Shown here: in pieces, positions 17,644 through 45,600 of the stretch | Layout of the letters: each line of letters opens with the position of its first letter | Numbering within the stretch: position 1 is the stretch's first letter | Source of the DNA: an uncultured Litoreibacter sp. | Lineage (GTDB): Bacteria > Pseudomonadota > Alphaproteobacteria > Rhodobacterales > Rhodobacteraceae | Direction of reading: 5' to 3' | Assembly (NCBI GenBank): GCA_947504205.1 | Contig: CANNGL010000001.1 | Location: 124,001-188,000, forward strand | Length of the DNA stretch: 64,000 nt | The notes under the pieces: model-generated | The model's database searches: none | What the model was told of the DNA's origin: nothing | What the model saw: only the letters and a program-made list of their open reading frames with translations | Program-made: the position numbers and the translations under genes

Positions 17644-18042
17644 ATGACAACCGAGCAAGCCACGTATCGTTACTTCAAGGTCTTCATTCCTGCCATTCTG
17701 GTTTATGGTTTTGGGTCGGTGGGCCTGACGCTGGCAGCCGAAAACATCACCATGCCTCCATTCGTGCTTTATGCATTGGCGCTCATCCCGACCCTCGCAA
17801 TGATGTGTGTGTTCTGGGCCCATTGGCGGTTTGCCGGCGAAATTGATGAATATCTCCGCCTCATCCAGATCAAGGCGACATTGGTTGGCGTCGCTTGCCT
17901 GCTGGTCCTGGCTTCGGGCTGGGGCACCCTGGAATTGCTGGCTGATGCTCCGAAGTTGCAGGTATTCTGGTTGCTGCCGATCTTCTGGGTGTCCCACTCT
18001 GCGGCAACCGCGTTCTTTTCCAAGAAGGAAGGCGTGTTCTGA
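17644..18042 (+). CDS. Four-helix membrane protein paired with XRE regulator
   Basis: A 132-residue integral membrane protein with four hydrophobic segments (about 15-35, 40-60, 78-98, 105-122). No enzymatic motif is visible. Its stop codon overlaps the start of the XRE regulator gene by one base (TGATG), so the two are translationally coupled. Small membrane protein plus short XRE regulator pairs are a common arrangement of unknown function. Function here is unknown. Confidence 0.75.
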   Translation: MTTEQATYRYFKVFIPAILVYGFGSVGLTLAAENITMPPFVLYALALIPTLAMMCVFWAHWRFAGEIDEYLRLIQIKATLVGVACLLVLASGWGTLELLADAPKLQVFWLLPIFWVSHSAATAFFSKKEGVF

Positions 18043-18284
18043 TGAAGAACGCACTGAAGGCGCTTCGGGCAGAGCGCGGCTGGTCACAGTCCGTGTTGGG
18101 GGAGTATCTTGACGTGTCCCGCCAAACGATTAACGCAATCGAGGCGGGCCGCTACGACCCATCGCTCCCTTTGGCATTCAAGATCGCGCGCCTGTTTGAG
18201 CTTCAGATTGAACAGATATTTGACGACGGATCAAAACACGCCACTACCGAACCACAAAACGAAAGATTGCGGCGGTCAGGTTGA
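18042..18284 (+). CDS. XRE-family HTH regulator (YozG-like)
   Basis: An 80-residue DNA-binding protein, essentially one helix-turn-helix domain: L-R-A-E-R-G-W-S-Q then L-G-E-Y-L-D-V-S-R-Q-T-I-N-A-I-E-A-G-R-Y (about 9-41) and a C-terminal helical extension ending near I-F-D-D. This matches the short YozG-type XRE family. It overlaps the preceding membrane-protein stop by one base. The 18-bp inverted repeat upstream of the pair is its most likely binding site. Confidence 0.9.
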   Translation: MKNALKALRAERGWSQSVLGEYLDVSRQTINAIEAGRYDPSLPLAFKIARLFELQIEQIFDDGSKHATTEPQNERLRRSG

Positions 18285-18427: not shown

Positions 18428-18473
18428 TAGTATCTATCCTCGTACTAAGGCAGAATAATTGTCCTTCTTTCAA
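18428..18473 (-). promoter_or_regulatory. HxlR-type operator, copy D
   Basis: AGTA-N10-TACT (18429-18446, extended to TAGTA/TACTA at 18428-18447) with the accessory element, read on the minus strand from 18470, at the same 24-nt offset as in the other four copies. The element is a weaker match (8 of 12). It lies 102 nt upstream of the AhpD-like gene; its orientation points away from that gene, so control of the gene would act through the symmetric part. Confidence 0.6.
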
Positions 18474-18548
18474 TATGTTATGGGCTTCCTTAGGTGTTTT
18501 CCACAAGCCGAGCCAATGGCTCGTGTGTCATCAAGATGGAGCAACACT

Positions 18549-19082
18549 ATGACCCCTTTCTCGAATCTGGGCCCGGATGCCAGCATCGGCGATATCCTGT
18601 TTTCCGACCCCGAACGCTTCGGGCCAATCCTGCTTTTTGCAAATAACGTCATGCGGGACGATGGGGCGCTCGACACGCCCACGCGGGAGCTTATTGCGGC
18701 CTACGTATCTGGTTTGAACGACTGTACCTTCTGCTACGGCGTTCATGACGCGACAGCTCTGCGCTTTGGCGTTGATGCGTCTTTGCTGGGGGCGCTGTTG
18801 GCCGATATCGATCAGGCTGCCATTGCCGATGATCAAAAGCCTGTCTTCGCATTTGCGCGCAAACTCACCCTGTCGCCATCCAGGGTCGCTGACGCAGACC
18901 GGCGGGCTGTTCTGGATGCCGGGCACTCCGAGACTGCGGTGAAAGACGTTGTGGCGATTGTCGCGCTTTTCAGTTTCTTCAACCGCCTCGTTGATGGCCA
19001 CGGTGTCAAAGGCAACGCCGACATATTTCAGCGCGACTCCGAGATGCTCGCAACATTTGGCTACGCCCCTCCACCCGGATGA
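18549..19082 (+). CDS. Carboxymuconolactone decarboxylase/AhpD-like protein
   Basis: A 177-residue AhpD-fold protein. The redox motif is D-C-T-F-C-Y-G-V-H, a CxxC followed by His, as in peroxidase-related alkylhydroperoxidase proteins. The open frame runs back to 18459, but the ATG at 18549 (M-T-P-F-S-N) starts the recognisable domain. The neighbouring SDR gene follows after 45 nt. With glutathione transferases and an HxlR regulator nearby, a role in peroxide or electrophile defence is plausible. Confidence 0.87.
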   Translation: MTPFSNLGPDASIGDILFSDPERFGPILLFANNVMRDDGALDTPTRELIAAYVSGLNDCTFCYGVHDATALRFGVDASLLGALLADIDQAAIADDQKPVFAFARKLTLSPSRVADADRRAVLDAGHSETAVKDVVAIVALFSFFNRLVDGHGVKGNADIFQRDSEMLATFGYAPPPG

Positions 19083-19127
19083 AGCGCCCAATCGGACACG
19101 TCTTCCATTCATATAAAGGAACCCCAA

Positions 19128-19874
19128 ATGAACCGGATTTGTAAAACAGCCCTCGTCATCGGGGGCAGCAGAGGCATTGGGAAGGAACTCGCCCTTGCCC
19201 TAGAGGCATCAGGCACACAAACCCATGTTGTTGCGCGGTCGCAGGCTGATCTCGCGGAACTTCAAGCAAACGCACCCGGCATCAAGACAATCAGGAAAGA
19301 CGCCGCGGAAGAGGGGGTGGCACTTGAGCTGCTGACACGTGTCCAGCCTGACCTCTTGGTCCTATGCGTTGGCGCGACACCTGAAATGGCGCCGCTTCAG
19401 ACCCAAACCTGGGATGAATTCAGCAAGGCTTGGAACGCGGATGTCAAAGTGGCGCACAGTTTCATGTCCGCGACCTTGACCCAGCCTATGGCAAGGGGCG
19501 GCACAATTGTCAGTTTCTCCAGCGGCGCGGGTTTGAGCGGATCGCGTCTCTCTGGCGGATATGCTGGGGCGAAACGGATGCAGCACTTCCTTGCCGAATA
19601 TGCGCAACGAGAAGCGGATGACCTTGATCTGGGTTTGCGGTTTCTGTCGGTCATTCCCAAGCAACTCGTGCAGGGAACCGAAAAAGGGTTGGGGGCCGCA
19701 ACAGCCTATTCAGCGGCGGTTGGCAAGCCGTTGGATCAGTTCTGGGCGCAGTGGGACAAGGCGTTGACCGCCCCAGACATCGCTGCGCATGTGATGAACC
19801 TGTTGAGCGAGACCGCCCCGTTGCCGACCAACACCTATGTGATTACGGGCAACGGGATGACGGAGGCTGGCTGA
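19128..19874 (+). CDS. Short-chain dehydrogenase/reductase
   Basis: A 248-residue classical-type SDR. The cofactor loop reads G-G-S-R-G-I-G near residue 11, with A-R-S after the second strand pointing to NADP preference, the catalytic Ser in F-S-S-G-A and the Y-x-x-x-K pair in G-G-Y-A-G-A-K. An AAAGGAA site precedes the ATG. It follows the AhpD-like gene and probably shares its transcript. Substrate unknown. Confidence 0.9.
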   Translation: MNRICKTALVIGGSRGIGKELALALEASGTQTHVVARSQADLAELQANAPGIKTIRKDAAEEGVALELLTRVQPDLLVLCVGATPEMAPLQTQTWDEFSKAWNADVKVAHSFMSATLTQPMARGGTIVSFSSGAGLSGSRLSGGYAGAKRMQHFLAEYAQREADDLDLGLRFLSVIPKQLVQGTEKGLGAATAYSAAVGKPLDQFWAQWDKALTAPDIAAHVMNLLSETAPLPTNTYVITGNGMTEAG

Positions 19875-19878
19875 TGCA

Positions 19879-19903
19879 ACTGCCCCATTCCAAGTGGGGC
19901 AGT
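19879..19903. terminator. Stem-loop between convergent genes
   Basis: A perfect 8-bp stem ACTGCCCC/GGGGCAGT (19879-19886 with 19896-19903) and 9-nt loop lies just past the SDR stop and before the end of the convergent VOC gene. No T tract on either side; a bidirectional terminator is likely by position. Confidence 0.6.
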
Positions 19904-19921
19904 CGACAATCCTACGGGCGA

Positions 19922-20554
19922 TCACCTCAAGGTCTTGAGGCCCGAAGGTGTTTTGATCTCCGCCACTATCCGCGTTTCGCCGCTTTCCACGGAAATCCGC
20001 GGATCATCCAATTTTCCATCAAGCCATGTAGAGATCGTATCGGCCTCTGGATGGGTGATCGAAAGCGAAACAAAGCTACAACCCCGACCCTCCATTCTGG
20101 TTGCCACATGCGGGCCGTCCGGCCATTGCAGCACCTTTGGGAATGCACCCGACAGAGGGAGTTTCCCATCGTCACACACTGACATCTGCCATTTGAGATC
20201 ACCGCGCGTCATGTCGATGATGGGTCCGGTAGTGGCCTGCCGCCCGGCGAGAGCGGAGTGGATATCGCTTGCCCCGACCACCCATGTTCCGATGCGGGGG
20301 TCTTCATCAAACGCGTCGAGACCAAACCAACGGGCGCGGGTCGGGCGTGGCGCTTTCGGATCAATGGCGATGACCTCAAGAAAGCAATCCTTTCCGAGCG
20401 AGAGCAGCAGGTTATGTGTCCCCATACGTGGGTGCGCCCCACCCGGAGGCATGTCAATTCCCAGCGTGTCGCGAACGTAGTCGACACCCTCTTCAAGCGT
20501 TCTCGCCAGGATGGCGATGTGGTCAAAGACAAGATCGGATTTGCAAGATTGCAT
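19922..20554 (-). CDS. VOC/glyoxalase-like domain protein
   Basis: A 210-residue protein of the glyoxalase-like (PF13468-type) family. It begins with F-D-H-I-A-I-L-A-R-T-L-E-E-G, the usual strand with a metal-type His, and contains G-T-H-N-L-L-L-S-L and C-F-L-E-V-I-A-I strands of the vicinal oxygen chelate fold. It is 24 nt downstream of a glutathione transferase gene on the same strand, so both are probably transcribed from the operator-bearing gap at 21257-21475. Substrate unknown. Confidence 0.85.
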   Translation of the reverse strand: MQSCKSDLVFDHIAILARTLEEGVDYVRDTLGIDMPPGGAHPRMGTHNLLLSLGKDCFLEVIAIDPKAPRPTRARWFGLDAFDEDPRIGTWVVGASDIHSALAGRQATTGPIIDMTRGDLKWQMSVCDDGKLPLSGAFPKVLQWPDGPHVATRMEGRGCSFVSLSITHPEADTISTWLDGKLDDPRISVESGETRIVAEIKTPSGLKTLR

Positions 20555-20578
20555 GTTTAGACCTCCTTTCTTTGCGCG

Positions 20579-21256
20579 TCACCAGTGGCCGGGCATCGTG
20601 GCTTCCACACCCGGACGCTCAAACACGCGCTGCTTCCATGCTTCCAGGTATTCAAGCGTATTGGCAAGCTCTGCAAACCCGAGCTCTGCCATGAGATCCG
20701 GTTTGGTTTCAGATGCCCTCTGGACCAGCCTGATTTCAACCCATGACACCGCATCGGCGGCTGATGGTGTTTCTCCCGCCAGAAAATTGCGCCCGTCTTT
20801 CAACTTGTCGTCGAGAAACCGCATCTCCGCCTGCATCGCCTCAGCGGCTGTCTTTAAGGGGTGCCACTTGGCTGTGCCTTTGTCAGCCATCGACGCACCT
20901 CCAAAGAATACCGGTGTCAGAAAGTCCGCCGCCGCTTTGCGCAGATACTGCCGGCTTTCCATCGTCGCTTGCCAGATTTCGGCGGCCTCCTGATCTGTCG
21001 CGCCAAAGAGGGGTCTTTCGGGAAACTTCCGGTCCAGCCATGCGAGAATGGCCATCGAGTCGCGGATCACGACGCTGTCGCTTTCAATGACCGGAACCGT
21101 CCCGCGCGGATTGAGCGAAATGAACGGCTCGGCTTTGTGTTCATTTTCGGACAGCTTGAGTTCGTTGATTTCGGCGTTCAGCCCTTTAAAGGCCAGCCCA
21201 AGCAGAACGCGCCATCCACGCGGTGAGCCACTGATAGTCGTAAGTGTAAGTGTCAT
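20579..21256 (-). CDS. Glutathione S-transferase family protein
   Basis: A 225-residue protein with the thioredoxin-like N-domain, starting T-L-T-T-I-S-G-S-P-R-G-W-R-V, N-P-R-G-T-V-P-V-I (cis-Pro loop) and E-S/D-S-M-A-I-L-A-W-L, then the all-helical C-domain with S-A-A-D-A. Its paralogue is encoded at 22242-22955, and both share the I-S-G-S-P-x-G-W-R-V-L-L-G-L start. Divergent from an SDR gene across a gap with two face-to-face operator elements. Likely conjugates electrophiles or reduces peroxides. Confidence 0.9.
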   Translation of the reverse strand: MTLTLTTISGSPRGWRVLLGLAFKGLNAEINELKLSENEHKAEPFISLNPRGTVPVIESDSVVIRDSMAILAWLDRKFPERPLFGATDQEAAEIWQATMESRQYLRKAAADFLTPVFFGGASMADKGTAKWHPLKTAAEAMQAEMRFLDDKLKDGRNFLAGETPSAADAVSWVEIRLVQRASETKPDLMAELGFAELANTLEYLEAWKQRVFERPGVEATMPGHW

Positions 21257-21302
21257 CGGTTTCTCCCTTGTGCTGCGAGAGACGTAACGACCGGAAATGC
21301 CT

Positions 21303-21411
21303 TTGCAAGAAGGCAGAATTGCTGGCCCAAGTATGAGGTTTCGTACTGTCAGAGCGCCGAGCGGGCGGTATCAAAAAGCGTACTATTTCCAAGAATTCTG
21401 CCTTCTTGTCG
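21303..21411. promoter_or_regulatory. Two face-to-face HxlR-type operators, copies A1 and A2
   Basis: Copy A1 (plus): CAAGAAGGCAGA element at 21306-21317 and AGTA-N10-TACT at 21330-21347. Copy A2 (minus): the same element from 21408 downwards and GGTA-N10-TACT at 21367-21384. Element-to-half-site offset is 24 nt in both. The two elements form a perfect 15-bp inverted repeat (21306-21320 with 21394-21408). They serve the divergent glutathione transferase and SDR genes. Confidence 0.75.
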
Positions 21412-21475
21412 AAAAATACCACGGGTCCTATTTCGGTTTCGAACCACGGAAACTGAGATGATTGGACCCCGTCAC

Positions 21476-22225
21476 ATGGGAAAGCTGAATGACAAAAACG
21501 CGCTCATAACAGGCGGCACCACAGGCATCGGATACGCCACCGCAGAGGTCTTTTTGGCGCAAGGCGCGCGGGTTGCGATCACGGGTCAAAATGCAGATCG
21601 TCTGACCGCGGCTGCAGAGTTGCTCGGCGACGATGTTCTGGCGTTGCGCACTGATCAGACCGATTTAAACCAGATCGATCAGATGGTCAGCCGGCTTGGC
21701 GACGCCTTCGGATCAATCGACAACCTGTTTCTAAATGCCGGGATCACGCTGCCTGCGCCTGTTGAGGAAGTTACCGAGGATCAGTTCGACCATCTCTATC
21801 AGACAAACCTGAAGGGGCCGTTCTTCACGCTGCAAAAAATGCTCCCGGTTTTGTCCGATGAGGCAAGGGTTGTCATCAATGCCTCGAACCTCGCCGGGAT
21901 GGGCGTTCCAACAACAGGCGCTTACGCCGCGACCAAGGGCGCGCTCGTATCGCTGACGCGTGTCTTTGCCGCGGAATTGCTGCCCAAGGGCATCCGGGTC
22001 AACGCTGTGGCCCCCGGTCCGGTCGCAACACCGAGCATGAGCAAGCTGGGCATGAGCGACGATCAGCTTCAGGGCCTCATGGAACAATTAACCACAACGA
22101 TCCCGATGGGCCGCATCGGTCAGCCTGACGAAATTGCGAAGGCAGTTCTGTTTCTTGCAACGGACGGAGCCGACTTCATGACGGGTGAAATCATCACCCT
22201 CGACGGCGGCTGGAGCAGCCTCTGA
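21476..22225 (+). CDS. Short-chain dehydrogenase/reductase
   Basis: A 249-residue classical SDR. N-terminal cofactor loop T-G-G-T-T-G-I-G, the N-A-G-I motif, catalytic Y-A-A-T-K in G-A-Y-A-A-T-K-G-A, and the C-terminal I-T-L-D-G-G-W-S-S-L. The ATG at 21476 (M-G-K-L-N-D-K) is at the usual family distance; an in-frame ATG at 21458 is possible. It leads a run with a glutathione transferase, SRPBCC and DUF1330 genes, downstream of operator A1. Confidence 0.9.
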   Translation: MGKLNDKNALITGGTTGIGYATAEVFLAQGARVAITGQNADRLTAAAELLGDDVLALRTDQTDLNQIDQMVSRLGDAFGSIDNLFLNAGITLPAPVEEVTEDQFDHLYQTNLKGPFFTLQKMLPVLSDEARVVINASNLAGMGVPTTGAYAATKGALVSLTRVFAAELLPKGIRVNAVAPGPVATPSMSKLGMSDDQLQGLMEQLTTTIPMGRIGQPDEIAKAVLFLATDGADFMTGEIITLDGGWSSL

Positions 22226-22241
22226 GCATCAGGGAAATGAG

Positions 22242-22955
22242 ATGAGCATCACAGTCTACAATATCAGCGGATCCCCTATGGGGTGGCGGGTTCTCCTCGG
22301 GCTCACCTTCAAGCGGCTCGACTATGAAGTTGTCTATCTCAGCGGATCAGACAACGAACACAAGCACGCGGATTTCTTGCAGAAGAACCCTCACGGGAAA
22401 GTTCCGGTTCTGGAATTTGACGGGGTATTCCGACGCGAGTCGCTCGCGATCCTCGGGTGGCTTGACGAACAGTTTTCCCAAAATCCTCTTTTCGGCGCCT
22501 CTACCGATGAAACCTCGAAAGTTTGGACGACCGCCGCACGCCACAGCGACTATCTGCTGAAAGCCACAAATGACGTCGTCTTCCCGGTGTTCAATGGTGA
22601 GGACGGCGTACCAAAGACCGGTGCCGAGGGCAGGGCAGGCCTTGACCAGGCGTGTGGTCTATTGCGCGTTGAATTGGCAGAGCTGGAGCGCCACCTGATC
22701 GAGACGCGGTTTCTGTGTGGAGACACGCCAAGCGCGGCTGACGCGGTCGCCTTTCCCGATGTTGGAAGGATTGTCCGCGCAATGCAGACCAGGCCGTGGT
22801 CAATGTCGGACTTGGCCTTTGAAAACCTCGCTCAGGATTTCCCCAACCTTGCCCGATGGCGCGACCGCATAGCCGCTCTGCCGGGCTATTCCAGAACAGT
22901 GCCGCCGCACTGGGACGACCATGATCAGAAAAGGAGCAATCATGACCAGCAATAG
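22242..22955 (+). CDS. Glutathione S-transferase family protein
   Basis: A 237-residue protein with the same N-terminal I-S-G-S-P-M-G-W-R-V-L-L-G-L start and N-P-H-G-K-V-P-V-L loop as the divergently encoded paralogue at 20579-21256. The C-domain carries S-A-A-D-A-V-A-F-P. The ATG lies 16 nt after the SDR stop. The longer open frame from 22185 is read-through of the SDR. The last 14 bases overlap the SRPBCC gene. Two paralogues flanking one operator region suggests a local duplication. Confidence 0.9.
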   Translation: MSITVYNISGSPMGWRVLLGLTFKRLDYEVVYLSGSDNEHKHADFLQKNPHGKVPVLEFDGVFRRESLAILGWLDEQFSQNPLFGASTDETSKVWTTAARHSDYLLKATNDVVFPVFNGEDGVPKTGAEGRAGLDQACGLLRVELAELERHLIETRFLCGDTPSAADAVAFPDVGRIVRAMQTRPWSMSDLAFENLAQDFPNLARWRDRIAALPGYSRTVPPHWDDHDQKRSNHDQQ

Positions 22956-23394
22956 CTATGAAAGAACGATCCGCACAACCGCATCCAAAGACGAGGTCTA
23001 CGCCGCTTTGACCACCGGGATCGCTCATTGGTGGACCAGCGATGCGGGCGTGTTTGAAGAACCCGGCGATATCGCGAAATTCGGTTTCAACGGCAAGCGT
23101 GGCTACTGGACCTTCAAGGCCACGACGTTGGACAAAGACCGTGTGGAACTGGAATGCGTCGAAGCGCTGCATATCCATGAGGGGCAGCCCAAGGAGATTG
23201 AAACCGAGTGGCTCGGAACCCGCGCGATCTGGACCATGAGCGACCGCGCCAACGGGACAGAGATACACTTTGTCCATGACGGCCTGACACCGGATCTTCT
23301 GTGTTTCGACATCTGCGAGGCGGGGTGGGACATGTTCTTTGTCGACAGCCTTCAGGCCTATCTCGACACCGGCACTGGCAAGCCACATGCGTAA
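22942..23394 (+). CDS. SRPBCC (AHSA1-like) domain protein
   Basis: A 150-residue START/Bet v1-like protein of the AHSA1 branch: T-I-R-T-T-A-S-K-D-E-V-Y-A-A-L-T, H-W-W-T-S-D-A-G and the terminal helix D-M-F-F-V-D-S-L-Q-A-Y-L-D-T. Members bind hydrophobic ligands or act with Hsp90-type partners; many are uncharacterised. The ATG at 22942 follows AAAGGAGC and overlaps the glutathione transferase gene by 14 nt. Its role in the stress island is unknown. Confidence 0.88.
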   Translation: MTSNSYERTIRTTASKDEVYAALTTGIAHWWTSDAGVFEEPGDIAKFGFNGKRGYWTFKATTLDKDRVELECVEALHIHEGQPKEIETEWLGTRAIWTMSDRANGTEIHFVHDGLTPDLLCFDICEAGWDMFFVDSLQAYLDTGTGKPHA

Positions 23395-23539
23395 GGCTGG
23401 CAAGTCTCACGCAGCGGACCAGACATCTGCTTCAGCTAAAGACCACACCACAGAGGATTTCTGGGCGCAGATGCTCGCGCGTCTGGACAAGGAGTTGGGT
23501 CTGAAACCCCACGCAAACATCACAAAAGAGGTCAAGTAA
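23387..23539 (+). CDS. Possible small coupled ORF, hypothetical
   Basis: A 50-residue basic ORF whose ATG overlaps the SRPBCC stop (8 nt) and whose stop overlaps the next ATG (TAATG). It fills the whole gap between the two genes and contains D-F-W-A-Q-M-L-A-R-L-D-K-E, an amphipathic helix. The double overlap favours a real, coupled gene, but I do not recognise the sequence. Confidence 0.45.
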   Translation: MRKAGKSHAADQTSASAKDHTTEDFWAQMLARLDKELGLKPHANITKEVK

Positions 23540-23979
23540 TGAACATTGAAGCGATCCTGGATCAGCTTGTTGGATGGTACGGAGATGGATCTGATGGCGC
23601 TGTCCCCAGTGCCGATCAGTGGGCGCATGTTTTGAACCGAGATCCGGATCAGGCGCTCACCCTGATCAATTTTTTCAAGTTTCGCGAGACTGCGAACTAT
23701 GCCGGAAGCTCTGGAGGAATTTCGGGCAGCGACGCCTTCGATCAATACGCGGCCGTCAGTGTGCCGACCATGCAGCGTGTGGGTGGAAAATTTCTGCTCG
23801 TCGCCCCATTTGAAGCTGCCTTGATCGGTGCGGGCGAAGATTGGGATCTCGTGGCCATCGGCGCGTATCCGAACTTGCAAGCTTTCCTCGACCTCTATCA
23901 GGACGCCGCATATCGCGAGGCCTTCACGCATCGCACGGCGGCATGTGCCGCCCAAAAGGTGCTTGTCGCCTCCGGCTGA
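23539..23979 (+). CDS. DUF1330-like protein
   Basis: A 146-residue soluble protein whose second half looks like a dimeric alpha/beta-barrel DUF1330 domain: L-I-N-F-F-K-F-R, the Y-A-A-V-S-V-P-T-M segment, G-G-K-F-L-L-V-A, and W-D-L-V-A-I-G-A-Y-P-N-L-Q-A-F-L-D-L-Y, followed by a H-R-T-A-A tail. It ends the SDR-led run and is followed by a strong stem-loop. No catalytic role is known. Confidence 0.75.
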   Translation: MNIEAILDQLVGWYGDGSDGAVPSADQWAHVLNRDPDQALTLINFFKFRETANYAGSSGGISGSDAFDQYAAVSVPTMQRVGGKFLLVAPFEAALIGAGEDWDLVAIGAYPNLQAFLDLYQDAAYREAFTHRTAACAAQKVLVASG

Positions 23980-23985
23980 TCTCCA

Positions 23986-24012
23986 ATGCTGCCCAGCTAG
24001 ACTGGGCAGCAT
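23986..24012. terminator. Strong stem-loop between convergent genes
   Basis: A perfect 11-bp stem (23986-23996 with 24002-24012) and 5-nt loop, arms ATGCTGCCCAG and CTGGGCAGCAT. It is placed between the ends of two convergent genes and probably terminates both, although no T tract is present. Confidence 0.7.
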
Positions 24013-24021
24013 GAAACAGTG

Positions 24022-24435
24022 TCAGGCGCGCTGCGCGCGCATCGATACCACCCCAATCCAAAGACCAAGCAGCGTCGTATGCAGGGCGATAAACCCGCCC
24101 GTCAGCAAGAACCACAGCACCAAATCGTCAATCCTAACCTTTGCCGCGATGCCAAATAGCGCCGATGCTGCCGAAAAAAGACCCATGAGCCACGCCACTT
24201 TCACCGCGTCAAACACCGATCCGTTTCGCCAATCCGTTCGAAAGTAGAGCAAAACAATTGCTAAGGCCTCAAGGACCCATGCGATCATTCCATAAAGGTA
24301 CAGAGGGTCGTCCATGCGGGTGAAGACGCCCAAGTTGAGGAACTGTTGTTCAAAAAGGAAAACATGCCAAAAGACGGCAAGGCACGCAGTTATGAGAAAG
24401 GCGCCCACGAAGGCCACCCATTGTGTTCTTGTCAT
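24022..24435 (-). CDS. Four-helix membrane protein, hypothetical
   Basis: A 137-residue integral membrane protein with four hydrophobic helices (about 8-28, 45-65, 78-98, 105-128). No motif recognised. It is divergent from the HxlR gene across a 141-nt gap containing operator copy B, so it may be co-regulated. Function unknown. Confidence 0.72.
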   Translation of the reverse strand: MTRTQWVAFVGAFLITACLAVFWHVFLFEQQFLNLGVFTRMDDPLYLYGMIAWVLEALAIVLLYFRTDWRNGSVFDAVKVAWLMGLFSAASALFGIAAKVRIDDLVLWFLLTGGFIALHTTLLGLWIGVVSMRAQRA

Positions 24436-24513
24436 TTCGCTACTCCGGATAAGTGACAGAGTACGGCCTGCTTTCTGGCCGCCTGTTTCCAGAGATACGG
24501 GTTTGGTATTTCA

Positions 24514-24558
24514 TTGCAAGTAGACAGTATTTTCGCATATAGTATCAAAAAAGATACT
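24514..24558 (+). promoter_or_regulatory. HxlR-type operator and promoter, copy B (autoregulatory)
   Basis: TTGCAA (24514-24519) and TATAGT (24538-24543) at 18-nt spacing form a promoter. The -10 box runs into a palindrome AGTATC-N6-GATACT (24541-24558), i.e. AGTA-N10-TACT. The accessory element CAAGTAGACAGT begins at 24517, 24 nt before the palindrome. It sits 18 nt upstream of the HxlR start codon. Confidence 0.75.
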
Positions 24559-24576
24559 GTAACCGGAGAGATAGAG

Positions 24577-24927
24577 ATGGTCACAACATCAGAAGCCGAA
24601 GCGCTAGAAAAACATCCAGAGTTGGCTGATCTCTGTCCGATGCCCGACATTGCAAAACTGATCGGTGGGAAGTGGAAGCTCATCATTCTGCAAATTCTGA
24701 TCTTCAAGGGCACCAAACGGTTCAATGAACTCAGACGCATGATCCCGGGCGTCACCCAGACAATGCTGACCAATCAGTTGCGGGCGCTGGAAGCTGACGG
24801 ATTGGTCACACGCAAAATCTATGCGGAAGTGCCGCCGAAGGTGGAATACACTGCCACGCAGCGTGCCCTGGACCTCGAAGAGATGTTTCACGCAATGCAT
24901 AACTGGTGGATGCGGGCGGACGGTTAG
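24577..24927 (+). CDS. HxlR-family transcriptional regulator
   Basis: A 116-residue winged-helix protein. The family start L-C-P-M-P-D-I-A-K-L-I-G-G-K-W-K-L-I-I-L is at residues 19-38, followed by the recognition region F-N-E-L-R-R-M-I-P-G-V-T-Q-T-M-L-T-N-Q-L-R. Cys20 lies just before the first helix, the position of the redox cysteine in quinone/aldehyde-sensing members such as YodB and HypR. The ATG at 24577 follows GGAGAGA. Its own promoter carries operator copy B, so it probably represses itself and the surrounding stress genes until an electrophile modifies Cys20. Confidence 0.92.
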   Translation: MVTTSEAEALEKHPELADLCPMPDIAKLIGGKWKLIILQILIFKGTKRFNELRRMIPGVTQTMLTNQLRALEADGLVTRKIYAEVPPKVEYTATQRALDLEEMFHAMHNWWMRADG

Positions 24928-24945
24928 TCCCGTCCACCCCAGTGG

Positions 24946-25707
24946 CTAATCCACGATGTGACCGGCCGAGTTGTTCAGCATGGTGCCAGCCATGAAGCCT
25001 GCTATATCAGAGGCGGCAAAGGCAAAAACTGCCGCTGTATCCTTGGCCTCTGGCAGCTTTTTCAGGGCCGTCTTGTTTTGCTCGATGAACCCTTTCATCT
25101 CGTCAAACCCCATCCCCATATTCGCGCCCATGGTGGCGAATGTATATTGGATGGTCGGCGAGTCCGGCATGGCTTCGGACCGCACGCCAAGAACCCGGAC
25201 GCCAGCAGCACCGTATTCATGGGCAAGCGACCGCATTAACCCTTCGGTCGCCGCATGAGATGCTGTGAGGGCAGGGGACCAGGGGGAGCCGACCTTGGCC
25301 AGGGTTGAGGTGTTCAGGATGATAACGCCGCTGCCTTGTTTGGACATGTGCCGATAGGCGGATTTCGCCGTGATAAATTGCGCGGCCGTGTCGACGGCCA
25401 GTGGCATCAGGAACTGTTCCAGAGACACCTCACTTGCTGGCTTGCCATGATGATAGAGGCCGGGTGCGACACCCGACATATTGACCACGATGTCGACGGA
25501 GCCAGCGTCCTCCGCGATCCCGTCGATGTATTTGTCGACCGCGCTTTCATCTGTCGCATCGACGACGCTCATTGCCGGTTGCCCGGCTTTTGCAGTGGCG
25601 GAGGATCGAAACACCGAAGCCCCTTCCTGCTCAAATCGTGTCGCGATGTGGTGTCCAAGATGGCCGCCAGCGCCAAACACCAGTGCATTTTTTCCTTCGA
25701 GTAACAT
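24946..25707 (-). CDS. SDR-fold protein with altered active site
   Basis: A 253-residue SDR-like protein. The cofactor loop G-A-G-G-H-L-G near residue 12 is a variant of the TGxxxGIG motif, and N-M-S-G replaces N-A-G. At the catalytic position the sequence reads S-H-A-A-T-E-G-L, so Tyr and Lys of Y-x-x-x-K are replaced by His and Glu. It may use another mechanism or act as a binding or regulatory protein. It converges on the HxlR gene and is divergent from another SDR gene across the gap holding operator copy C. Confidence 0.82.
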   Translation of the reverse strand: MLLEGKNALVFGAGGHLGHHIATRFEQEGASVFRSSATAKAGQPAMSVVDATDESAVDKYIDGIAEDAGSVDIVVNMSGVAPGLYHHGKPASEVSLEQFLMPLAVDTAAQFITAKSAYRHMSKQGSGVIILNTSTLAKVGSPWSPALTASHAATEGLMRSLAHEYGAAGVRVLGVRSEAMPDSPTIQYTFATMGANMGMGFDEMKGFIEQNKTALKKLPEAKDTAAVFAFAASDIAGFMAGTMLNNSAGHIVD

Positions 25708-26083
25708 GGATGATTTCTTTCAGTTGATTTCGCCTGAGATCGCTGGAAATACAGATGCCTAAGCGCTCCACCTGCGATCTCAGTCGCAACCTATGAAATC
25801 AGTATGTATTCGCAAGAAGGCAGATTTTTCGTATATAGGTTGCAAAAACGTACCACTAGGCCGAGCCAAGCCTTGCCTCCCCGCTCCCCGGATCGGTCAC
25901 GCCGTGGAGGAAATAGTGACCGACGCGCCAATATTCACGAACGACGACCCCTCGCTTCAGGCTTTCAGCCGACCCGGTTCTTGCGCCTTCGATACGGGTC
26001 GCGCGACACGCGCATAAAACGGGTCGCTCCGCACCTGTCTCGGTCATTAGTCGGATGGCATGCAATCAATGAAAGGCATGACC
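25708..26083. promoter_or_regulatory. Divergent promoter gap with HxlR-type operator, copy C
   Basis: A 376-nt gap between two divergent SDR genes. Operator copy C reads on the plus strand: CAAGAAGGCAGA at 25813-25824 and AGGT-N10-TACC at 25837-25854, again 24 nt apart, with TCGCAA and TATAGG as the promoter boxes. A TTGCGA-N16-TAGGTT pair on the minus strand overlaps it. I see nothing gene-like in the remaining 25860-26080, which would be a long leader of the plus-strand SDR gene. Confidence 0.65.
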
Positions 26084-26839
26084 ATGGAACTCAAAGACAA
26101 AACGATCATCATCACCGGTGCGAGCAGCGGAATAGGTGCGGCAGCAGCACTTCTGTTCGCCTCAGAGGGGGCGAATGTCGTGTTGGGCGCGCGCCGCAAA
26201 ACCCAGCTGGACGTGCTTGTCGGGCAGATCACGCAAAGCAATGGCAAGGCGGTTTGCCTCGCGGGTGACGTCAACGACGAAGCCTATGCCAAAGACCTTG
26301 TCGCGTTGGCGGAACAGCAATTTGGTGGCCTTGACGGCGCATTCAATAATGCAGGTATCGTGGGCGAAATGGGTCCAATTCCAGAAATGGACACAAGCAA
26401 TTGGCAATCGGTCCTTTCCACAAACCTCACAAGCGCCTTCTTCGCGGCCAAAGCCCAGCTTCCAGCACTGGAGAAACGCGGCGGCGGGGCGATGGTGTTT
26501 ACCGGAACTTTTGTCGGTTTCAGCAATGGCGGTATGCCCGGAATGGGAGCCTATGCCGCATCGAAGGCCGGATTGATTGGGTTCGTGCAATCCTTGGCTG
26601 CGGATCATGCGGCGCAAGGCATTCGCATCAATACGATACTGCCTGGTGGCACAAAAACGGATATGGCTGGAGATGATCCCGCGATACACGAACTGGTCGC
26701 TGGATTGCATCCCCTGAAACGCATGGCCGAACCCAGAGAGATTGCTCAGTCAGCGTTGTTTTTGCTGTCGGATCGGGCAAGCTTCATTACAGGCTCACCG
26801 ATGGCAGTAGATGGCGGCATGGCGACGCGCCTGCTTTAA
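26084..26839 (+). CDS. Short-chain dehydrogenase/reductase
   Basis: A 251-residue classical SDR with T-G-A-S-S-G-I-G, A-R-R-K after the second strand (NADP type), N-N-A-G-I, catalytic G-A-Y-A-A-S-K-A-G and M-A-V-D-G-G-M at the end. Start chosen at ATG 26084 because AAAGG lies 7 nt upstream; ATGs at 26060 and 26078 have poorer spacing. A 10-bp stem-loop follows the stop. Probably part of the HxlR regulon through operator copy C. Confidence 0.9.
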   Translation: MELKDKTIIITGASSGIGAAAALLFASEGANVVLGARRKTQLDVLVGQITQSNGKAVCLAGDVNDEAYAKDLVALAEQQFGGLDGAFNNAGIVGEMGPIPEMDTSNWQSVLSTNLTSAFFAAKAQLPALEKRGGGAMVFTGTFVGFSNGGMPGMGAYAASKAGLIGFVQSLAADHAAQGIRINTILPGGTKTDMAGDDPAIHELVAGLHPLKRMAEPREIAQSALFLLSDRASFITGSPMAVDGGMATRLL

Positions 26840-28901: not shown

Positions 28902-30134
28902 TCAGATGTCGCGCAATTCGCCGCTCAGGTCGTCCATCCCATCACGGCGAGACAGCGCTTTGCGATAGTCCGTCGGGGTCTGTCCGGTGACACGCTTGAA
29001 CGCATTGTAAAATGAAGATCGCGCATTGAAGCCCACATCGTATGTGATCTTCAAAACAGTGTCGTCGGTTGCGGAAAGACGTGTCTTGGCCTCGGCGATC
29101 CGGTAGCCGTTGACGAAATCAAAGAAACTTGCGCCGATCGCCTCGTTCAGGGTTTGAGAGATATAGTTGGGTGAGGCCCCGATATGGCGGGCCAAGCCCC
29201 ACAGTGACAAGTTTGGATCTCGATGCAGATGGTCTTTTTCCATAGCGGCGCGCAGTTTGCGCGCGATGCGCGTGGATGCCTCTGTGCTCAGGGCGGACTT
29301 TTCATATTTCTCGCCCGACGGCCCGGAGGGCCGGTCTTCGCTGGTCGCAGAGGGGTGTGCGTTGTCCGGTCCCGGGGCCAATGGCGGGCGCTGCCTGAGC
29401 CCCCAGAGTATTGTCGCGGCTACCAGGAAAAGACCCGCAAGACCTGCAACAACAATAAATGCGCGGGGAATGTCGGGTTGCTCCGGGCCGAAGGCGATCA
29501 GCAGAATAAGTGCGTGCGCCCCCCAGAACAAAGCGCCCAGCCCCCCAATCACGTAAATCCAGCGTAACTCATGCTCTTCGGTGCTGGCATAGACATCGCG
29601 CAGCATGAGCCGGTAACGCATCATGCGGCGCACGATCAGGAACAGATAGACACCCATCTGTGGGTAGACCGCGAGCTGTAGAAAGGCGATGACAGCGATC
29701 AGCGCAGACCACCAGCCGAAGGCCGACAAAATGTCTTCAGGAACTGTCTCTGACCACAGGTTTTGCGGCGACAGGATCATGAGTGCTCCGACAAGCACCG
29801 CTGCAGCAGGCAGGACGAAGTGTCGGTAGAGACGCTCAGGTCCTCGCCCTGTTGGCGAGGTCAATGTGAAGACGTAGATCCAGAACAGCGGTGCGAGGCT
29901 CAATGAACTGGACAACCACAGAACCATGTCAATCGGCTGCATATAGACCTCCTGTGTCGTCTGGGTCATGCGAGCGAAGGCGTCCGGAAGGTTATTCACT
30001 GCGACAGCGGCAAGAAATGCCGCAAAGCTGCGGCTCACGCGCGAATAGCTTCTCTGGGTGAGACAAAAGGCGATGCCAAACACCGCAATAGCGATGGTGG
30101 CTGTACTGATCATTTCGGCAAAAATTTGGTCCAT
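28902..30134 (-). CDS. AraC-family regulator with N-terminal membrane domain
   Basis: A 410-residue protein. The first 245 residues hold about seven hydrophobic helices, and the last 105 residues are an AraC helix-turn-helix domain: L-S-L-W-G-L-A-R-H-I-G-A-S-P-N-Y-I-S then the second helix and G-F-N-A-R-S-S-F-Y-N-A-F-K-R-V-T-G-Q-T-P. The combination is that of membrane-bound AraC regulators that sense a signal at the membrane. The linker (about 246-300) is polar and disordered-looking. Target unknown. Confidence 0.88.
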   Translation of the reverse strand: MDQIFAEMISTATIAIAVFGIAFCLTQRSYSRVSRSFAAFLAAVAVNNLPDAFARMTQTTQEVYMQPIDMVLWLSSSLSLAPLFWIYVFTLTSPTGRGPERLYRHFVLPAAAVLVGALMILSPQNLWSETVPEDILSAFGWWSALIAVIAFLQLAVYPQMGVYLFLIVRRMMRYRLMLRDVYASTEEHELRWIYVIGGLGALFWGAHALILLIAFGPEQPDIPRAFIVVAGLAGLFLVAATILWGLRQRPPLAPGPDNAHPSATSEDRPSGPSGEKYEKSALSTEASTRIARKLRAAMEKDHLHRDPNLSLWGLARHIGASPNYISQTLNEAIGASFFDFVNGYRIAEAKTRLSATDDTVLKITYDVGFNARSSFYNAFKRVTGQTPTDYRKALSRRDGMDDLSGELRDI

Positions 30135-42631: not shown

Positions 42632-45600
42632 ATGGGCGGGCGTTGGCCCTTCACGGAGGAAAAAATCGCCTCCCGTCTGGCGCTGATCGAGCCATTTATC
42701 TTCCGGCGTAAGCTGTGTTTGCCTCATTTCAAATTGTTGACGCTAAATGAAGCCATGACCGACGCCCCGATCTGCGCCGACCCGAGCAACTGGGAAGAGG
42801 TCCCGCATCAAAGCTATTGGGGTCAAAGTGACCTTAATTTCGTGCTCAAGAGTCACTTTCAGGTGCCGCCGGATTGGAACGCTGAAAAACTCGCGCTGCA
42901 CCTACCGCTTGGAGAACTTGGAGATATCTTCAACCACCCCGAGGCGCTTGTTCACATTGATCAAGCGCCTATCGGGTCTGCTGACCGATATCACCACACG
43001 CTGCCTCTTGCCGCGGCGTTGGCCGATGGCGCAGAGCATGTTCTATCGCTTCATGGATGGACGGGATTGGCGGGCTGGCCGCCGAACCCAAACAGTAAAG
43101 CCAAGCTATTCATGGGGACGCCTTCACTGGTTGAGCGGGATGAGGCGTTGTTGGCCTTCCATCAACTGGCCAGTGCCGTATTTGATACAGTTTGCGTATT
43201 GGACCCTGCCGGTTCCGAGCGCCCGGCTTTGCTGGACGCTCTCGATTGCGCGTTCAAGTTGCTGGATACGCGCGATCCGATTGGAGATATGCTCTATAAT
43301 TCGGTTCCTGCTGCGCATGCCGTCCTTGAGTCCGGAATAGCCGCTGCTGGCGCGCCTCTGGACGCAACTCTGCACGGGATCGGGCACGCCCATATGGATA
43401 TTGCGTATCTCTGGCCGATCTCGCAAATCCGCCTCAAGAATGCCCGAACCTATTCCAATGTCCTGCGACTGATGGAAGAGGATCAGGACTTCAAATTCTC
43501 CCACTCGCAACCGCAACTCTACGCGATGGTGGCCAAGGACTACCCGGCACTTTTCGAGCAAATCAAATCCCGCGTTGAGGAGGGCAGGTGGGAAGTCATG
43601 GGCGGCACTTGGGTCGAACCTGACCTGAACATTCCGGGCCCTGAAGCGTTGGTTCGGCAACTGACGCTCGGGCGAAAATACTTCCGTGAGACATTCGGAG
43701 ATGTGGAAACCCCGGTCCTGTGGCTGCCCGATACGTTTGGGTTTCCAGCACAAATCCCGCAACTGATGCGGCTTGCCGGCTTAAAATGGTTTGTCACCAA
43801 TAAGCTGAACTGGAACCAGAGCAATAAGGTTCCCTGGTCGACGCATCATTGGGAAGGCTTGGATGGAAGCCGGGTGCTGGCGCATATTCTGACCACGCCC
43901 AGAGATGTGCAGTATTTACCCTTTCCGACGAACTACAAAAGCGATCTGAGTGCTGCCGAAGTTTTGGGCACGACCAGCGATCCCTCCATTCCCAAACAGA
44001 TCACCACGTTACCAATTTGTTATGGCTACGGCGATGGTGGCGGTGGGCCGACTGAGGATCTTTTGGCCAAGGCTCGGGCCTTTCGGAATATGCCCGGCAT
44101 GCCGAAATTCAAGATGAGCACAGTTCGGGAGACCTTCGATCAGATCGAAGCAGATGCGGCTGACCTGCCGGTCTGGGCTGGCGAGCATTACATGGAAGGT
44201 CATCGCGGGGTTCTGACATCACAAGGCTGGATCAAAAGGGCGAACAGGCAGGCCGAGCGCGCGCTGCATGAGGCTGAAGCCTTGTCCGCCATGGCAGGTT
44301 TGACATCGGATTTGTCTGAAGCGTGGCGCCTGCTTTGCCTCAATCAGTTCCACGACATCATCACCGGCACGTCGGTTGCAGCGGTTTTTGACGATGCGCG
44401 GCGGGATTTTGTGAAAATTATGGAGGCAACAGAACGGGTGGCTAGGCAGGCCGCAGAGGTACTGCGCACATCCCAACCAGCAATCGCCAATTTATCGCCC
44501 ATAGCGGGCGCGCGCGTGGTGTTGGTGGATGGGACAACGAATGAACAGGGGCAGGGGGTCGAGGATGGGACCCTCCTTCATTTCGAAACACTTCCGGCCT
44601 ATTCCGTCACGCCGATTTCCGAAGCCAGCCAACCGAGCGATCCTGTTTCGATTGAGCAGATTGGAGCGGATATCGTGCTTGAGAACGCATCCTTGCGGGT
44701 AGAGATCGGACCGGACGGACAGCTTACTCGGGTATTTGAGAAAAACAGTAGGCAAGATGTGCTGAAACCGGGCTGTACGGGCAATCAATTGCAGGCGTTT
44801 GAAGATCGCCCGATTTGCTGGGACGCCTGGGATATAGACCCGCATTTCGAAGACCGGATGGAGATAGTTCAGGGAGCTGCGACGGTTGAAATACTGGAGC
44901 GTGGACCGATACGAGCCAGCGTTCGGATCACCACGCATTGGCGATCGAGCCGCCTGACCCAGACGATAGCGCTGTGCGCACAATCCAACCGGATCGATTT
45001 CGTCACAGAGGTGGATTGGCACGAACAACATACCCTGCTCAAGGCCGCTTTCCCCACCTGTATCTGCGCCGCACAGGCGCAATTTGATATTCAATGGGGC
45101 CATGTGGAGCGGGCCACGTCGCGAGAGAGTTCATTCGACGCCGCGCGCTTTGAGGTGCCGGCCCAGAAATGGGCGAAACTGAGCTCAGAAGGGCTTTCCG
45201 TTGCCGTGCTGAACGATTGTAAATACGGCTACGATGTGCGCGCTGATACGATCCGCATCACGCTGATCAAATCCTCCACGTCGCCCGATCCGAACGCCGA
45301 TCAGGGTCATCACGAATTCACCTACAGCCTGTTGCCGATTCTTGGAGAGGATCGACACGGTCTTGATAGAGAGGCCTACGATCTGAACTCTGCCACGCGG
45401 CTCTTGCCCGCTGATGTCGACGGAAGGCCAGCCAAAGTACCGTTTCGGTCGATAGCTCCGAGCAATGTGATTGTCGAAACGCTCAAACCTGCTGACGATC
45501 GGAATGGCATTGTGCTCCGATTGTTCGAAGCAATCGGGCGCGAAACGACGGCGGAGATTGAGTTTTCAGCAGAGATTGAAGCCGTCTCGGAAGTCGATTT

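Follow-up and report, generated by a model that had tools for sequence, protein, structure and literature searches.

Five two-element sites with a constant 24-nt offset as probable HxlR operators in a gene cluster of an uncultured Litoreibacter sp.

Within the 64,000-nt stretch of uncultured Litoreibacter sp. DNA analyzed here (contig CANNGL010000001.1; hereafter "the window"), five intergenic sites (A1, A2, B, C and D; Table 1), spread over 7.4 kb around the gene of an HxlR-family regulator (hxlR), share one layout, in which a CAAGAAGGCAGA-like element 1 is accompanied by an AGTA-N10-TACT-like element 2 at a start-to-start offset of 24 nt in five out of five cases. These sites are very probably operators through which HxlR would repress its own gene and the genes surrounding it, until a modification of the Cys20 residue would induce the cluster. 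Computation shows that the sites exist and are confined to the locus, that they are conserved upstream of hxlR, that base 11 of element 1 covaries with residue 62 of the regulator, and that the genes involved recur as partners. The original prediction, made from the letters of the window, had already listed the five positions and the constant offset, both of which held upon rereading; the inverted repeat that it ascribed to every copy is good at B (6/6 outer pairs) and fair at A1, A2 and D (all counted by eye), and poor at C.

A strict pattern describing the sites has four matches in the whole genome (3.79 Mb in 10 contigs), all of them inside the cluster, and its reversed control has none; site D lies outside this pattern. 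A relaxed pattern, allowing for up to two mismatches, returns five matches from the same 3.79 Mb, which are the five sites with zero mismatches each, and its reversed control matches the genome eight times at this tolerance. The genome-wide motif search, set as a test beforehand, thus ended with 5/5 matches in the cluster and none scattered elsewhere. As both patterns were composed post hoc from sites that were already known, an independent matrix of 62 positions was built from 19 hxlR-upstream sites of other organisms, with the window sites excluded. Run over both strands of the window, this matrix recovers A1, A2, B, C and D only (18.5-62.2 bits), with no other window place above -5 bits on either strand, no window place above 4 bits for the reversed matrix, and no window match at 18.4 bits for 300 column-permuted matrices (top score 15.5). 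Element 1 alone reaches at least 7 bits at 27 window places, the top four of which (17.0-19.4 bits) correspond to sites A1, A2, B and C; all four have their best element 2 at offset 24, as is the case for none of the remaining 23, and element 1 of site D is too degenerate for the 7-bit cut. Element 2 alone, scoring at least 9 bits and not accompanied by element 1, is found at 43172-43189 and 58230 (-) of the window, probably by chance.

The same site is seen upstream of hxlR in relatives. The loci referred to here by "L" numbers are hxlR-containing or motif-bearing loci from other genomes unless stated otherwise, those from L014 to L093 having been retrieved with peptides of the window HxlR (the best 80 of 570) and, hence, favoring this subgroup. 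An exact offset of 24 was called by script in 24 of the 31 hxlR-upstream regions (30 relatives plus the window); for the remaining seven (L009, L012, L021, L025, L031, L034 and L036) the script picked another place, and inspection of these sequences revealed, after element 1, a variant of the second element whose start lies at 24-26 and which is degenerate in L009 and L021. Among 57 distant HxlR loci, likewise chosen with window HxlR peptides (Bacillota, Cyanobacteriota, Planctomycetota, Nitrospirota, Actinomycetota, Thermodesulfobacteriota, Chloroflexota and several classes of Pseudomonadota), the top match located at most 300 bp upstream of hxlR ranks first in the entire locus, both strands considered, in 49, and the hxlR-upstream site attains at least 10 bits in 39, with the true matrix reaching this score at 12 places away from hxlR in the same 57 loci and the reversed matrix at eight. 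The consensus in the distant loci reads AAGTACGCAC, offset 24, followed by an AGTATC-N6-GATACT-like repeat. A GGTAT beginning 12 nt ahead of element 1 is frequent in the ortholog clade (G12, G15, T17, A17 and T13 of 19) and, by eye, is also present at B, A2 and, as AGTAT, at C; it is not a consensus feature among the distant homologs.

A less biased set comprised 50 further HxlR genes (60 loci minus one with no usable HxlR upstream region and nine copies of loci used before), including L108, which was found by motif, as well as L099 and L101 of the window's own genome, of which L101 also counts in the residue-base analysis of the first set below. A site of at least 10 bits precedes 20 of these 50 genes (19/49 with L108 set aside); the best-of-locus count is 30/50, several of these cases, however, scoring below zero bits, which is why the 10-bit count is preferred for this set (L158, at 10 bits or more, is only the third best in its locus). 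The further HxlR genes that do not have the site mostly encode other recognition helices, and the partial occurrence therefore indicates that the architecture marks a large HxlR subgroup and not the whole family. The "local HxlR regulon" originally proposed is thus supported by comparison, i.e., by the site preceding hxlR in orthologs and distant homologs and by conserved neighbors, but the architecture itself is not local, being shared by that large subgroup. Searches with strict patterns over 385 genomes of the class, 398 of the phylum and another search over 120 phylum genomes matched three, four and one genomes, respectively (the own genome, matched at A1 only, is counted in the first two), such scarcity being due to most HxlR operators differing at single bases. 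Going from motif to gene, there were six matches outside the own genome, compared to one, none and one for the reversed controls: four out of six (L103, L104, L107 and L108) precede an HxlR gene, L105 precedes a glutathione transferase (GST) gene in the genome of L103, with the site pointing away from the gene, and the 3 kb of L106 contain no hxlR.

As for what the 24-nt offset might mean, half-to-half identity over 98 sites is highest, of all shifts from 15 to 24, at 19 bp (0.390 vs. 0.349 with permuted partners, z 4.4; next best shift z 2.1), and element 1 shows a dyad at 14.5 (z 5.2 upon permutation within sequences), to which three inner pairs (11-18, 12-17 and 13-16) contribute most and the majority of the outer pairs little; the sites are related by descent, so these z-scores, as well as the Fisher test, overstate independence. 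At L148 and L147, element 1 is itself a palindrome of element 2's kind, 19 bp away. Given the identity peak and the 14.5 dyad, the best description of the operator is a pair of like palindromes at a distance of 19 bp. The 24-nt offset would then probably run from the flank of the first palindrome, which is probably degenerate in the window's clade, to the arm of the second, with the centers being 19 bp apart. A dyad of element 1 centered at 7.5 was also tried and dropped (z 1.9 vs. 5.2 for 14.5), and an additional dyad at 24.0, between the elements (z 5.4), is unexplained.

Residue 62 of HxlR (Thr in the window) falls within a T/S-Q-x-M-L-T stretch and sits at what we take to be the start of the recognition helix, a placement based on solved relatives and the family fold. 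Among 55 representatives, base 11 of element 1 is C in 33/33 that have Arg or Lys at this residue and in 1/22 that have other residues. In the further set, at 10 bits or more, 18/18 Arg/Lys cases have C (L101, already counted, is one of them), and the two other cases have A with Gln and C with Phe. Base 30 of element 2, 19 bp on, follows residue 62 less strictly (C in 41/46 with Arg/Lys and in 9/29 with Thr). Residues 88, 93, 97 and 104, among others, correlate too, as shared descent would give. Since base 11 tracks residue 62, HxlR itself probably reads element 1, and the comparison points to HxlR reading both elements. The two further HxlR genes of the window's genome, L099 and L101, have weaker site-like sequences upstream, with Gln62 accompanied by A at base 11 in the former and Arg62 by C in the latter; such a difference at base 11 might keep the three regulators apart. 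Beyond what had been claimed originally, these comparisons add a widely shared architecture, probably consisting of a 19-bp pair of like palindromes, and a residue-to-base relation. We consider it somewhat more plausible than the contrary that a large, cross-phylum HxlR subgroup uses one operator architecture, in which two palindromes of the same type stand in strict register at a distance of 19 bp, and that residue 62 sets base 11 and, less stringently, base 30. This operator architecture was not found in the titles or abstracts of the literature surveyed.

A number of observations weigh against reading the five sites as HxlR operators. The palindrome of site C is poor (2/6 outer pairs by eye; 2.1 bits for element 2), and a promoter-like hexamer pair is seen at B only, such pairs occurring at shuffle frequency (three found, mean 3.3). 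Eight out of the 57 distant loci miss the best-of-locus criterion, L149, L150 and L157 have the usual recognition helix and no clear site, and L103 probably stems from the organism of L015, with which it shares the site and the 252-bp gap; since L015 informed the pattern, L103 is not independent of it. With regard to residue 62, Arg/Lys coincides with C in 45/46 cases before thinning, one Arg having A, and the newly found Phe62 homolog L156 has C, unlike the earlier Phe with T. The tree needs just seven changes for the seven residue/base classes (six being the minimum possible), which makes the independent events few: one large clade (Thr with G), one Phe with T, and one or two Gly with T. The matrices used for calling the sites also favor C at base 11, or the bases of the clade, thereby helping the relation.

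The operator, as we picture it, would consist of two dimer sites sharing one palindromic type, the centers of which are about 19 bp apart, with the first palindrome (around CAAGWAGGCAG) keeping mainly one side in the window's clade and the second (AGTATC-N6-GATACT) being clearer. HxlR dimers would bind both, at site B across the -10 box of their own promoter, and HxlR would repress itself together with the flanking GST, short-chain dehydrogenase (SDR), glyoxalase, SRPBCC and AhpD-like genes, until a reactive electrophile or oxidant modifies Cys20, whereupon the dimers would be released or re-seated and the cluster induced. That HxlR binds the sites, that it represses and does not activate, and that a thiol switch operates are inferred from sequence. 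At B, as originally noted, element 2 overlaps the predicted -10 hexamer TATAGT of hxlR (24538-24543; TTGCAA at 24514, spacer 18; hexamer matches of background frequency), and HxlR binding should therefore block this promoter. The wider claim of a "promoter-operator" applies to B, with its sigma-70-like TTGCAA-18-TATAGT; the other copies have no recognizable promoter in a simple scan, and site D faces away from its genes (ahpD-like and SDR1), so a "promoter" module does not fit every copy and an operator is preferred. An erroneous orientation of D was considered and ruled out, as L105 shows the identical reverse placement before a GST gene.

The same geometry bears on the thought that element 1 is merely part of a promoter (spacer or extended -35 context) and that the 24-nt spacing is promoter geometry: B and, as judged by eye, many of the relatives have a -35-like hexamer that stops at element 1, together with a TATA-like -10 overlapping element 2, yet D and L105 keep the spacing while pointing away from the gene, A1 has no -10-like hexamer at the expected position (by eye), and the bases of element 1 track residue 62 of HxlR, which leaves this explanation with hardly any credibility. 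It is highly improbable, too, that element 2 alone is the HxlR operator and that a second, unrelated regulator binds element 1 at a fixed spacing. Element 1 is unlike element 2 in the window's clade, and one palindrome is enough for one dimer, both of which would suit such a regulator; however, residue 62 of HxlR covaries with base 11 of element 1 and, in a looser way, with base 30 of element 2, and the element 1 of L148 and L147 is palindromic like element 2, 19 bp away. Rather unlikely is activation by HxlR, with the modification of Cys20 improving binding as in Bacillus subtilis HxlR. Among PDB entries, the window protein matches HxlR and YybR best, and formaldehyde activates B. subtilis HxlR by crosslinking Cys11 and Lys13 (PMC7835342); on the other hand, the predicted -10 at B is covered by element 2, and the residue two positions after Cys20 is Met, not Lys. 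A further point against repression by HxlR is that a title cited in PMC4776306 calls the B. subtilis HxlR a positive regulator, so that repression is no more than the predicted sign of control here.

The regulator itself carries an HxlR-type winged helix domain (PF01638, 102.7 bits against a cut-off of 20.8), its nearest solved relatives by sequence being B. subtilis YybR (HypR; 4a5m) and HxlR (7bze/7bzd/7bzg). The cysteine predicted just before the first helix is Cys20, with C at that position in 89 of the 90 aligned rows, the window included; it is the sole cysteine of the window HxlR (a second one is present in 40/90 rows) and is followed by Pro21 and Met22, i.e., Met stands two residues after it and there is no Cys-x-Lys pair. 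Cys20 is a likely candidate for a redox/electrophile sensor. Orthologs are rare in the organism's own family (8/294 other genomes, E up to 1e-25) and occur in scattered Alpha- and Gammaproteobacteria, with the shortest tree path leading to a Thiogranum assembly; a candidate account of this scattered distribution is that the locus is accessory and has spread horizontally. HxlR-family genes as such are present in 14/14 control genomes and in 13/26 sampled genomes of the same class, and one genome can carry more than 30 of them.

The genes of the cluster are listed together with the sites in Table 1, and their Pfam assignments agree with the earlier statement that the sites lie upstream of two glutathione transferase, SDR, AhpD-like and HxlR genes. 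Going by gene order, the predicted units are assumed to be the AhpD-like gene and SDR1 for site D, GST1 and the glyoxalase-like gene for A2, and SDR2, GST2, SRPBCC and DUF1330 for A1; site B precedes hxlR.

Table 1. Candidate operator sites and genes of the hxlR cluster (window coordinates)
Feature	Position	Strand	Elements or family match	Placement	Matrix score (bits)
Site D	18429..18470	-	element 1 at 18470, arms 18446-18429	upstream of ahpD-like gene (18549) and SDR1 (19128)	24.8
Site A1	21306..21347	+	element 1 at 21306, arms 21330-21347	points to SDR2-GST2-SRPBCC-DUF1330	18.5
Site A2	21367..21408	-	element 1 at 21408, arms 21384-21367	points to GST1-glyoxalase	40.1
Site B	24517..24558	+	element 1 at 24517, arms 24541-24558	operator of hxlR (predicted)	62.2
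Site C	25813..25854	+	element 1 at 25813, arms 25837-25854	between SDR3 (-) and SDR4 (+)	49.7
AhpD/carboxymuconolactone decarboxylase-like, peroxidase-related enzyme	18549..19082	+	PF02627 4.1e-10; TIGR01926 above cut-off		
SDR1, short-chain dehydrogenase	19128..19874	+	PF00106 6.6e-15		
Glyoxalase_3-like protein	19922..20554	-	PF13468 4.4e-40	downstream of GST1	
GST1, glutathione transferase	20579..21256	-	PF13409/PF02798		
SDR2, short-chain dehydrogenase	21476..22225	+	PF13561 5.5e-61		
GST2, glutathione transferase	22242..22955	+	PF13417 1.5e-15		
AHSA1/SRPBCC-domain protein	22942..23394	+	PF08327 6.2e-6		
DUF1330 protein	23539..23979	+	PF07045 1.8e-8		
hxlR, HxlR/DUF24-family regulator	24577..24927	+	PF01638 1e-29		
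SDR3, short-chain dehydrogenase	24946..25707	-	PF13561 2.7e-27	start left of site C	
SDR4, short-chain dehydrogenase	26084..26839	+	PF13561 2e-59		

In the 27 relative loci compared for synteny (L014-L036, L103, L104, L105 and L107, some of them shortened by contig ends), a GST homolog adjoins hxlR in 13 (L014, L015, L017, L018, L019, L023, L025-L030 and L103), and an SRPBCC homolog is found near it in 15 (L017, L021, L023, L025-L029, L031-L036 and L107). The nearest to the gene set of the window among the 27 is L025 (1995-8321), a locus of Agaribacter marinus that contains two hxlR genes as well as homologs of GST, SDR, SRPBCC and DUF1330. Only L050 and L070 (two sites each) have at least two sites of at least 18 bits among the other loci scanned, which are 3-16 kb long, and five operators within one cluster look unusual. 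Elsewhere in the window, a 50-codon reading frame (23387-23539, +; by eye) overlaps the SRPBCC gene at the latter's end, terminating on the DUF1330 start codon, a small gene with no Pfam match (17644-18039, +) followed by a small Cro/C1-type helix-turn-helix gene (18042-18281, +; PF01381) lies immediately to the left of site D, and an AraC-type regulator (28905-30134, -; PF12833) has a long N-terminal part resembling membrane segments by eye.

If the proposed reading is true, the regulons of little-studied HxlR regulators would become readable and predictable from sequence via a fixed operator and a specificity code. The window would be a clear test case for this, offering five natural operator variants before glutathione-dependent and dehydrogenase-type detoxification genes.

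With regard to known systems, PF01638 and a cysteine before the first helix are common to the window HxlR and to HypR/YybR, YodB, CatR and HxlR of B. subtilis and QsrR of S. aureus. HypR and YodB employ a two-cysteine switch; the window HxlR has no second cysteine and no Lys two residues after its only one, which sets it apart from these MarR/DUF24 regulators. B. subtilis HxlR reportedly binds two regions (BRH1 and BRH2), which could be the same arrangement as the one described here. Its formaldehyde-sensor pair is made up of Cys11 and Lys13 (PMC7835342). Campylobacter RrpA and RrpB, also PF01638 proteins, provide the NCBIfam models closest to the window HxlR, which nevertheless scores far below their cut-offs (80.4 of 175 and 69.9 of 185 bits, respectively); both bind their own promoters in electrophoretic mobility shift assays, and RrpB is described as negatively autoregulated (PMC4508579). 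The catDE promoter holds two CatR boxes and one YodB box (PMC6212828), and the window sites are similar to the CatR case in having more than one box per promoter. By description, what distinguishes the window from the B. subtilis operators is the pairing of the elements in strict register and their presence in five copies per cluster.

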